From Coemansia sp. RSA 487 (taxonomy: Eukaryota; Kickxellomycota; Kickxellomycetes; Kickxellales; Kickxellaceae), in the NCBI GenBank assembly GCA_027577595.1, contig JANBRJ010000147.1, forward strand, positions 1-24,338: 24,338 nucleotides of DNA, read 5' to 3'. Shown here in pieces: positions 4,189 to 12,849 of the stretch (position 1 is the first letter of the stretch; the number at the start of each line of letters is the position of its first letter). A program made the position numbers and the translations under genes. The notes beneath the pieces were generated by a model. It searched no databases and was not told where the DNA came from. It worked only from the letters and a program-made list of their open reading frames with translations.

Positions 4189-5489
4189 CCTTTTGCACAA
4201 ATAAAAAATAGCAAATATGTATTTGTATTCCCCGCTCCTTGCCGAGGTGCCAATTTTTCATGATTTCTCTCTATAAAAGCTCGCCAATTACACTTTTCAG
4301 TAGCATGAAAAAATATATATATTAGCTAATCATTAAAAGCAAAAAATTGGTGCATGCTGCTCTATTGTGACATTTGTCGATAAAGCTGCGAAATTATTAA
4401 TGCTTACCCAAAATATGCAAGCAAATCCCATGTATACCATTGTAAACCTGATTGCACACATGGAATATACATTGTTGTGGCTTGCTGGAAGCTAGTTGTT
4501 TATTGTATATTTGCGAAAGCGACATGACGATTTGAAGTAGCCAATTTTCTATGTATTTGAGCAGTTATCACCAGTAATGGCAAGTTGCGAAGAAAAGCGT
4601 AAATAAAGCAGGATCGTTTTGAGCGCCTTATATAAATTTCGATTTAAATGTGTCAGAATATGAACTATTCATAGTGAATGTGACGATGTGTTTACATTCG
4701 GTCTTTATTGCAGCGTTATACACAACATGCTTATTTTTTACACCAGAGCTGAAAAGCAGTTGCAATTGTGCAATTAGCCGAATATTTGTACATACAGCCT
4801 AATACCTTCGTTATATAGTCTTGAATAGGAAGTTACTAATTCTATAAATGTGCAATTGCTAGTTAATCCATGGTTAATTTCATTTAGTTTCGTTGAGTAA
4901 TGTATTTTTTGCTGATCAGAGCGTCGAATAATTAATTGGCACTATAATGGAAGAAGCTTCTAGACACAGAATCAGCTGAACTAAGCAGAATATTTGATTT
5001 GTTTTATTAAGGAGGCTTGTATAAACATAACCTCCCATACAGTATTTGTTTTTTACGAATTCCGGATCAGAGAATAATGAGTATAAAATTCCATATACTT
5101 GAGTGACGAAAAATAATATCCTTAAGAGTATAATTCATGCATGAAGACGATTGTGTATTCCTGGAATCCCGCAAATAATGTGTATAAATCGTCTTTATGT
5201 GTCTTTTTTTCCCGTATACGTTTATTCGCTTCAACCCTACCACTTAAGCCCAATTATAAAGCATTTAAGTGTATTAGTTTTTCCAATATCAGAATGTGTT
5301 TGGCTTTGGGTTTATTTTTAAACAATAGACGCTGGTCTTTCACTGTATGAAGACACACTTTCTCTAGGAAAGTCCTGGTTAAACGACAGCGAGTGTGATA
5401 ACAACTAGGTTTGCAAGTTACCAAGCTGCAATCATTATCAGAAAGTGTTACGTAGCTTTATCAGCTATAAATGCCAATGTTTTGTTTGA
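4189..5489. other. A+T-rich spacer without a recognisable gene
   Basis: Nothing here can be assigned. A TATA-like TATAAAAG on the plus strand near 4273 is followed only by frames of a few codons. Another TATAAAA near 5082 precedes a 69-codon frame (5141-5350) that resembles nothing I know. The part next to 5490 does not continue the Fanzor homology upstream. Confidence 0.45.
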
Positions 5490-6053
5490 AATAAACCTAT
5501 TCGTGATGTCAGGATGCGACGGATGCTAAGACAACTCGAATTTGAAGTTTATCTGCTTGACGAATTTCGCACTTCAAGGCTGTGTCCGCCATGCCACGGT
5601 GTGCTCGAGAAATTCAAGAAAATAAAAAACTTGCGGCCGTTTCGAAGTTCAGAGAAGAGAAAGCGCAAGGCCTTATGCCATGGATTGCTTGGATGTGCAA
5701 GCACAGAGTGTATAAAGGCTGTAACGGAGGCGACAAACAAAAACAAGAGGAAAGGAAAAAGCAGTGCTGCGCAATACGACTCTGCTTGGACTGCCAAAGC
5801 CAGATGCTGGAATCGCGACATTTCCGCTACCATCAACTCCCGCTATATCGTCAACTGGCAGCTCGAGCACAGCAAAGTCCCCAAACCGTTCAGATGCTCC
5901 ACTGCTTCTGCATATGCTTCTACCGCAGAGCCTCAGCATACTTACCAAACTTGGGTCCTATATTGCAAGTGCTCTGCTGTTTCTCTTTTGAATTTATTGC
6001 GGATGCTTCTAAATGATACTTGCTGTTGTTGCTGTTGTTTTGTATGTTTTTGA
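5490..6053 (+). pseudogene. C-terminal fragment of a Fanzor (eukaryotic TnpB-like RNA-guided nuclease)
   Basis: The frame reads YLLDEFRTSRLCPPCHG early and CWNRDISATINSRYIVNW later. In Fanzor/TnpB proteins the EFRTS block leads into the zinc ribbon, and the WNRD-x-x-A-x-x-N block carries the last RuvC aspartate. Here the ribbon pairs are C24/C27 and C61/C66 and the aspartate is D102, counted from the ATG at 5514. The spacer LRPFR, the LCHGLLGC block and the VPKPF ending are as I recall for fungal Fanzor1-type proteins. In-frame homology begins about 5490, before the ATG and right after a stop. The several hundred residues carrying the wedge/REC domains and the first two RuvC motifs are missing, so no active nuclease is possible. 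The fragment has no internal stop and is more G+C-rich than its flanks. Homology fades after about 5945; the Cys-rich tail comes from T/G-rich DNA. No terminal repeats of the element are visible. Confidence 0.72.
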
Positions 6054-6539
6054 TTGCCTATTTTTTACTAATATTCATCATGGTTTTTTCTACTGCTTTT
6101 TTATTTCGTATTGTATTGTATTGGTGGCTACAAATGACGAGTTCTCGCAATCAGCAGAAAACACTCGACTTTCACACGTCGTCGAAACACTAACTCGTCA
6201 GCGCTTGTCTTTTACAAACATCCCTTCCTCCCAAATAGTATAGAGCTACCCGTGTTTTTTGGATTCAAAGTTTATCTTTGATGTTTGATGAATCTTGCTA
6301 ACAATGTGCAATTATGATGCCCCCGCTAATTAGATAACCATTAGCAGAAATTGGTTTTCTGATTGTAAAAAGGCAACATCGTTCTTAACACTCAATTTAA
6401 TGAGGAGGCGAAGTCTCGAGTTCTGAGGCTTGCAGTGATTCTGCCGTGAAGAAAGAAGGTACTCCGTTTTTTTACAACAGTCACAAAGCTAGATAACACT
6501 AAGCGTTTGCTTTAACAGGGTAAATAAATTATTTGTGTG

Positions 6540-6547
6540 TATAAATA
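6540..6547 (+). promoter_or_regulatory. TATA box (TATAAATA)
   Basis: It lies 74 bp before the ATG at 6614, the same spacing seen for other TATA-led genes in this window. A C/A-rich leader precedes the ATG. Confidence 0.35.
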
Positions 6548-6613
6548 CGTTTTCTTTCCAAGCAAGTTTTTATCTACAACTTTCAACTTGTAATTATTCA
6601 AACCCCAACAACG

Positions 6614-6709
6614 ATGGCATTAACCAACACTCATAGAGCAGCCGCAAATTTATGTTTGCCTCTCACTGGAATGGAAATAAGAGACAATTTGGTCCATATA
6701 TATATGTAA
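6614..6709 (+). CDS. Possible 31-aa small ORF behind a TATA box
   Basis: The frame begins MALTNTHRAAANLCLPLTG and stops after 31 codons. A TATAAATA element lies 74 bp upstream and a CAACAACG sequence abuts the ATG, so the start region looks like a genuine fungal promoter and leader. The peptide has no motif I recognise and is not clearly a signal peptide. It could be a small protein, the front of a gene whose body has been lost, or chance. The stop falls in an AT-dinucleotide tract. Confidence 0.22.
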   Translation: MALTNTHRAAANLCLPLTGMEIRDNLVHIYM

Positions 6710-6991
6710 TATATGCGCTGGAGCATTACTTAATATGCGACCTCCGCGCATGTTTTAGAGTTGCCCATTAGCCGCAAACGTGATAAGGGTTTCAAGTTTA
6801 GCTTTCATAAAGGCTATTTGTAACTGACAACGTATGTTGCAGCAAGTTGTATACCAAAACAAGTTCTATTAATCGTTCCTCCTTTTTATCATTAAAACTA
6901 AAGCAATTAAATATATATTCAGTCATAACATGTAATCAACCTCGGCGCTCAGCGTCTCAGGTTTAGGACAGGAGTATCGTTGCTGAATTAT

Positions 6992-12228: not shown

Positions 12229-12473
12229 AGATGACTACAGCGACGATTTCTTGTATTATTGAATCAAGCAAAATATAAAAAGCACTTCTCTCATATGTTG
12301 ATTTATTGCTCAATTATTTATCCCATAGCATTTTGTAAACGTAAAAGTATGAAAACACCTAAATGCGTAGATTAGTTAAACTATATCTGCAATTTCACAA
12401 ATGAGCGCTATGAAACTACATAAAACAGCTACAAAATATGCTTTGGGCGTATATGAAACTGAGAAGCACACAT

Positions 12474-12734
12474 TTAGTGCCAGCCGCCACCACGCCAGCC
12501 GCCACCGCGCCAACCGCCACCACGCCAACCGCCACCGCGCCAACCGCCACCGTTCCATCCACCACCGCGCCAACCGCCACCGTTCCATCCACCACCGCGC
12601 CAACCGCCACCGTTCCATCCACCACCATGCCATCCACCACCATGCCAATTACGGAGTGAAAGGTCATTATCAGTTTCACCACTAATCAATGGGGATGCTG
12701 CAGCCAGTCCAAGGAAGAGCACATATTTGATCAT
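12474..12734 (-). CDS. Secreted tryptophan/glycine pentapeptide-repeat protein
   Basis: The 86-residue product begins MIKYVLFLGLAAASPLISG, a clean signal peptide, followed by a short acidic linker (GETDNDLSLRN) and then eleven units of W-x-G-G-G with x = His, Asn or Arg, ending in WH. The open frame extends upstream, but the ATG at 12734 starts exactly at the signal peptide, and a TATATAAAA box lies about 107 bp before it, so this start is preferred. The mature part is basic and without cysteines. Gly-rich aromatic repeats occur in cell-wall, adhesive and antimicrobial secreted proteins across eukaryotes. None is specific enough to name this one. It stands alone, with no operon-like partner. 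Confidence 0.72.
   Translation of the reverse strand: MIKYVLFLGLAAASPLISGETDNDLSLRNWHGGGWHGGGWNGGGWRGGGWNGGGWRGGGWNGGGWRGGGWRGGGWRGGGWRGGGWH
12477..12648. repeat. 15-bp coding minisatellite with 30-bp higher-order units
   Basis: The array is made of 15-bp units, one per W-x-G-G-G pentapeptide. Three near-identical 30-bp units lie at 12531-12560, 12561-12590 and 12591-12620; the last two are identical and the first differs at its edge base. They encode WNGGGWRGGG dimers, so the array has grown recently by duplication of a two-unit block. Because the period is a multiple of three, several other frames, including a His-rich one on the plus strand, are open as well; these are by-products. Confidence 0.85.
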
Positions 12735-12840
12735 CCTAAAGAAGAATTTCACTAGTATAGTTGATAGAAAAGGGCGTTTTCTGGAATGCTGAAATTGCCT
12801 AAAGAGCAAAGGTCTGAAATAAACAGCAGCAATTGTTGTC

Positions 12841-12849
12841 TTTTATATA
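12841..12849 (-). promoter_or_regulatory. TATA box of the Trp/Gly-repeat gene
   Basis: TATATAAAA on the minus strand lies about 107 bp before the ATG at 12734. It is the strongest match to a TATA consensus upstream of any gene in the window. Confidence 0.55.

Follow-up and report, generated by a model that had tools for sequence, protein, structure and literature searches.

Fanzor1 remnant and its reading frame

The window, that is the whole stretch of 24,338 nucleotides analysed here (Coemansia sp. RSA 487, JANBRJ010000147.1, forward strand), is contig C147 of the 17.8-Mb, 184-contig assembly covered by our searches. Together with the Fanzor relatives, neighbouring P450, arrestin-like and dehydrogenase genes indicate that the genome is probably fungal. 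Repetitive frames occupy positions 12376-12842 on both strands, the minus strand carrying a Gly/Trp/His-rich repeat frame (GGGWHGGGW). On the plus strand, a frame at 5490-6053 is open over 187 codons, with a TGA stop immediately 5' of codon 5490. Its translation contains DEFRTSRLCPPCH at 5559-5597, then CASTEC, then CWNRDISATIN. The features of the locus are collected in Table 1.

In a phmmer search against PDB chain sequences, the remnant matched the Fanzor1 proteins of Parasitella parasitica (PpFz1, E=8.4e-19) and Spizellomyces punctatus (SpuFz1, E=1.1e-10), every other row of the same run having E≥0.83. Six full-length Fanzor frames from the same genome aligned by tblastn over 5490-5891 to 5490-5936, with 37-42% identity. 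As these matches end at 5891-5936, the open frame past about 5900 is mostly non-Fanzor: the Fanzor1 part is roughly the first 135 codons and one third of the frame is unrelated. We conclude that 5490-5894 encodes a Fanzor1 C-terminus in which the C4 zinc ribbon is kept along with the glutamate of DEFRTS and the last aspartate (NRD). The initial annotation had proposed a Fanzor C-terminal remnant that keeps the zinc ribbon as well as the final RuvC aspartate, and phmmer, translation and tblastn agree on it. In searches with general profiles, Cas12f1-like_TNB remained sub-threshold in Pfam (E=0.054, 14.1 bits for a cut-off of 26.3), the longer 187-aa frame had no Pfam match, and neither NCBIfam nor PHROGs returned a match to the remnant.

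The order of motifs, DEFRTSRLCPPC...CASTEC...CWNRD, fits the Fanzor1 motif given in PMC3627910 (a C4 zinc ribbon, then RD, with [TS][TS] before). With the solved structures of PpFz1 and SpuFz1 (PDB 9cf0 and 8gkh) the remnant has in common the C-terminal TNB/RuvC-III part, including the DEF(R)TS glutamate, CxxC and CxxxxC pairs and NRD aspartate; relative to these structures it is devoid of REC, WED and RuvC-I. Aligned on the SpuFz1 numbering of PMC10432273 (offset 394), the DEFRTS glutamate corresponds to E541 and the NRD aspartate to D606, so that of the catalytic triad of acids two remain and D383, the RuvC-I aspartate, is gone. Homology to the full-length proteins begins at about residue 588 of the Fanzor at locus L049 (L numbers designate loci of the genome), and nothing upstream in the element matched them at E≤1e-3.

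Table 1. Positions of the features in the window.
Feature	Position	Strand	Basis
Whole repeated element, one copy	5002..6272	+	blastn to 39 loci; left border +/- about 6 bases, right border sharp
Left-end region, whole or partial also in copies without Fanzor	5002..5302	+	blastn
Left-end hairpin with 5' asymmetric inverted repeat, majority form AAGGGAGGTTTGTA	5009..5036	+	pairing in alignment A2, consensus fold
Fanzor1 C-terminal remnant (TNB zinc ribbon and RuvC-III)	5490..5894	+	translation, phmmer, tblastn; neutral codon-position divergence
Remnant: E25 codon	5562-5564	+	
Remnant: CPPC	5583-5594	+	
Remnant: CASTEC	5694-5711	+	
Remnant: NRD aspartate codon	5817-5819	+	counted from translation
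Remainder of open frame, largely without Fanzor homology	5895..6053	+	frame list, tblastn
Junction AAACTTGG, where L012, L013, L016 and others carry a segment of about 240 bp missing in the window	5947..5954	+	
Right-end region, common to remnant-bearing and Fanzor-less copies	5947..6272	+	blastn
3' asymmetric inverted repeat, majority form TACAAACCTCCCTT, complement of the left repeat; degenerate in the window copy	6213..6226	+	
Terminal 12 bases GGATTCAAAGTT, sharp right border, next base variable	6261..6272	+	33 right ends; 29 pattern matches

The remnant belongs to a multicopy element

A DNA search of the genome with 4300-6990 gave at least 80 matches. Alignment of the window by blastn to 39 fetched loci defined a unit of about 5002-6272, outside of which the flanks are unrelated. 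The left ends have the palindrome in common, with unrelated bases upstream, and all 33 right ends stop at near-identical ...GGATTCAAAGTT, with variable bases beyond. The remnant is therefore located inside a multicopy element, palindromic at its left end and sharply bounded at its right end, and is not a lone gene. A pattern search of the genome retrieved 51 left ends and 29 right ends, while reversed-pattern controls gave 0.

Fanzor presence was scored at each locus by tblastn (E≤1e-3). The right end was found in 33 of 40 loci (39 fetched plus the window), 17 with and 16 without Fanzor sequence; both ends were found in 20 of the 40, separated by 449-1981 bases (9 with Fanzor, 11 without). These proportions describe a sample rather than a genome census, because loci were picked by similarity to the window, and right or left ends by probe score. 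The 3' segment of about 240 bp that lies between fragment and right end was whole or partial in 20 fetched loci (8 with Fanzor, 12 without) and missing from the window copy in the blastn alignment with these loci.

The left hairpin was analysed in alignment A2, in which 22 of 23 rows were kept (L012 left out). Of 236 pair cells, 91.5% were paired, two pairs were changed on both sides, and the consensus fold had a z of -18.5, with none of 100 column shuffles as low; the DNA fold of the window copy alone gave a z of -1.6. Two elements with this left end, L071:698-1687 and L043:1326-2301 (oriented), are 95% identical over 990 bases, which suggests fairly recent mobility.

Truncation and decay of the Fanzor fragment

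The absence of an internal stop, from which a single large truncation without slow decay had been deduced, holds for the window copy. Among the 16 loci matched by the L049 Fanzor in tblastn, eight start at the same residue (588-589), as would be expected if this group goes back to one ancestral truncation. To this extent a single truncation stands, but it does not cover all loci, since L020 starts at residue 444/483, L034 at 543 and L040 at 573, L043 is reduced to the tail (774-902), and the Fanzor sequence of L009, L011, L016 and L021 starts at residues 618-634. As an event at the window locus itself, in which a lone Fanzor gene would have been truncated once, the initial reading accounts for the single open frame, but it is refuted by the existence of many copies with identical, defined ends and the same fragment start in eight of 16 loci; we regard it as hardly credible.

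Divergence among the window copy and 14 others was 17.06, 16.83 and 18.53% at codon positions 1, 2 and 3, respectively. Full-length controls were two sets of six Fanzors, taken from 20 fetched long-frame loci; they showed the third-position bias expected for genes under selection, with 7.98/7.89/15.12% in one set and 8.16/6.54/16.26% in the other. The near-equal divergence in the remnant, compared with these third-position-biased genes, means that it lacks protein-level constraint. Moreover, 13 of the 14 other copies have one or more gaps of a length not divisible by three, some of these gaps being unaligned ends. The open frame thus gives no support to the deduction that slow decay had not occurred. 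Judged from codon positions, the remnant is a neutral passenger and the open frame of the window is a survivor among decaying copies.

This comparison also bears on the idea that the short frame encodes a mini-protein with a function of its own, the zinc-ribbon/RuvC-III fragment having been domesticated. Its 187 codons are open and the cysteines and acids intact, but the equal divergence at the three codon positions, the frame-breaking gaps in 13 of 14 copies, the different behaviour of the full-length controls, the TGA directly ahead of codon 5490 and the third of the frame that is not Fanzor all speak against it. We consider such a protein very unlikely; as a candidate it was ruled out by codon-position divergence relative to the full-length controls.

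Full-length Fanzors in the same genome

The initial annotation had suggested a search for full-length relatives. A protein search of the genome gave 153 matches at E≤10, 20 of them in long open frames (675-902 aa). The same kind of right end as in the window element is carried by two of the full-length Fanzors, namely L049, with a frame of 902 aa, and L050, whose frame is broken once; L048 has the exact 3' repeat but another terminus. No left end was recognised at the fetched loci for the elements to which L048-L050 themselves belong. No full-length member of the window's own lineage was present among the 153 matches, the long-frame rows being 37-54% identical to the window remnant.

Small elements that combine a window-type left end with an L049-type right end were found at L068, L070, L071, L044 and L045, while at L069 the window-type left end is associated, by eye, with an L048-type right end. 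Since different types of right end occur with a shared left end, short derivatives seem to have arisen from at least three Fanzor lineages.

A reverse-oriented left-end hairpin is present at L048:1141-1174, about 0.9 kb upstream of the full-length frame, and probably belongs to a neighbouring element placed head to head. A second full-length family (L051, L052, L053, L060 and L063-L067) has its right end near ...CTAGTTTTGCAAAA; in some pairs of this family the shared sequence extends as far as 4 kb upstream of the Fanzor frame.

Mobility of the element

The locus in the window is probably one copy, now dead, of a non-autonomous transposable element that descends from an element carrying Fanzor1. 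In the mechanism that we propose, the ancestral Fanzor element of this lineage would have lost the N-terminal two-thirds of its gene, and the short form, with both ends kept, would have been multiplied by a replicative transposase of the Helitron2-like (HUH) type acting in trans. Recognition of the left hairpin and of the right end by this enzyme would produce insertions without target duplication, and further deletions would give the Fanzor-less 'ghost' copies, the Fanzor fragment being a passenger of the element. We give about even chances to the part of this scheme in which a Helitron2-like enzyme, now lost or unassembled, acted in trans; that the element is non-autonomous and Fanzor-derived is the broader claim and the firmer one.

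The ends resemble those of Helitron2. The 5' asymmetric inverted repeat forms a terminal hairpin (A2, above). The complementary 3' repeat is subterminal, but it lies 46 bases before the right border, against 20-30 bases in the Helitron2 elements described in PMC3627910, and the 3' hairpin is weak. Of 28 left ends, 19-23 have a T at each of positions -6, -5, -4, -2 and -1. The ATT preceding the left end had been considered as a TAM, by comparison with the ATN of PpFz1; this reading was dropped, as T enrichment spans six bases. No target duplications were detected by eye in the joined flank pairs of 20 elements. When the same joined flanks were compared with the fetched loci in search of empty sites, no match extended across the junction and three matches concerned the right flank only.

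A conventional cut-and-paste transposon, bounded by terminal inverted repeats and having captured a Fanzor, would also place complementary repeats such as AAGGGAGGTTTGTA and TACAAACCTCCCTT close to both ends. The right repeat is however internal, 46 bases off the border, and matching duplications were absent (by eye) at 20 junctions, so that we hold this origin to be unlikely.

We searched the genome for the enzymes of the different mobilisation systems. No Rep-helicase (PF14214) was found at E≤0.01, but control genomes were silent too, making this search uninformative. A single match to the PIF1-family helicases, in a frame of 541 aa, was present in the genome, which argues against RepHel in this assembly; an autonomous partner may exist in another strain or in sequence that was not assembled. 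The serine recombinase of IS607-type elements (PF00239) was absent from the genome at E≤1, with 10 of 14 controls positive, as was the Y1 transposase of IS200/IS605-type elements (PF01797) at E≤0.01, with 6 of 14 controls positive. Mobilisation of the IS607 or IS200/605 type was dropped, as neither the recombinase nor Y1 is in the genome. Four left ends devoid of a window-type right end were traced about 6 kb downstream for an autonomous Helitron; only short elements beside host-like genes were encountered, and two of the four (L068 and L071) carry L049-type Fanzor tail sequence.

In a genome without recognisable transposase for these elements, the remnant and ghost copies might owe their spread to the full-length Fanzors themselves, through RNA-guided cutting followed by repair, with many gene-less right ends supplying the guide RNAs. 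We regard this as a long shot; if true, the Fanzor-less copies would be a dispersed heritable guide library, parasitic on a few nucleases.

Search for guide RNA at the right end

The initial annotation expected the remaining segment to be the part most likely to keep RNA features. The right end is indeed retained, but the 3' segment of about 240 bp is gone and structure tests were not significant. Compared with column shuffles, the right-end alignments folded no better: z was -1.1 for A1 (33 of 35 rows kept; L016 and L024 left out) and -1.4 for A3 (19 of 22 rows kept; L016, L024 and L035 left out). The 240-bp segment had looked hairpin-rich, but alignment A5, made from the 14 fuller of the 20 loci matching it, gave a z of -0.91, with 40 of 200 shuffles as low; pairing counts in A5 lean slightly to structure, the covariation score being reached in 28 of 500 shuffles. 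The right end of the window copy alone folded with a z of -0.63, the terminal 31 nt of the right ends were unremarkable (median of 0.305 of shuffles as stable; 3' hairpin not significant), and Rfam had no match in 4900-6400. These folding tests, none of them significant, give no support to a structured RNA at the right end.

In one family of full-length Fanzors, the stop codon is followed by a region of 133 nt (alignment A4, comprising L054:4048-4180, L055:4008-4140 and five loci related to them). It gave a z of -5.1, with none of 100 column shuffles as low, indicating that the folding test is able to detect structure. The copies differ by 9.9% in this region and by 16.3% at third codon positions of the same family, and no pair is changed on both sides. 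From its sequence, this region is a good omegaRNA candidate.

Right ends of remnant and ghost copies could be transcribed as omegaRNA scaffolds with flank-derived guides and used in trans by full-length Fanzors, which would favour retention or spread of the copies. The sharp right border with variable sequence beyond, the right end common to full-length L049 and L050, and the description in PMC10432273 of S. punctatus ghost loci whose scaffolds work with SpuFz1 are in line with this possibility. Against it, A1, A3 and A5 fold like column shuffles, A5 pairing counts favour structure slightly at most, and Rfam, the window copy and the terminal folds gave the negative results above; we retain it tentatively, as rather doubtful. 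By analogy with the published ghost loci, the kept right end may serve as a scaffold template beside a flank-derived guide. The window copy is itself a poor guide-RNA candidate because part of its 3' sequence is lost.

Comparison with known Fanzor elements

In the case of the window, a seemingly preserved open frame is a decaying passenger. The genome represents a second type among fungal-looking Fanzor genomes: a nuclease lineage persists there mostly in elements that have no gene or only a fragment of it, and full-length Fanzors under purifying selection coexist with them. It offers a natural setting for the question, raised for ghost loci by Saito et al. (PMC10432273), of whether Fanzors work in trans on such elements.

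Ghost Spu-1 elements and partial SpuFz1 loci were described in Spizellomyces punctatus (Saito et al. 2023, PMC10432273). As in the Spu-1 system presented there, a Fanzor1 genome contains complete, partial and Fanzor-less copies with the same two ends, the right end is beside a variable flank, there are Fanzor-less elements of about 550-600 bases, and no transposase was found in the elements. Spu-1 differs by its 30-nt terminal inverted repeats and demonstrated omegaRNA (PMC10432273), whereas the window element, with a hypothetical omegaRNA at most, ends in a hairpin on the left and in an asymmetric border on the right.

The Fanzor1 elements CRe-1, 2 and 3 of Chlamydomonas reinhardtii are non-autonomous Helitron2 (Bao and Jurka 2013, PMC3627910). 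According to the description given there, their ends are in common with confirmed RepHel elements, whereas RepHel was not found for the window element, and many 5'-truncated copies have target duplications of 7-19 bp, whereas none were seen in the window family; the right repeat of the window element is also farther from the end. Both share a left hairpin formed by the 5' asymmetric inverted repeat, a subterminal 3' repeat, a T-rich left flank, internal deletions and a conserved right end (PMC3627910). The window element is a new member of the known 'ghost' Fanzor and Fanzor-Helitron2 elements.
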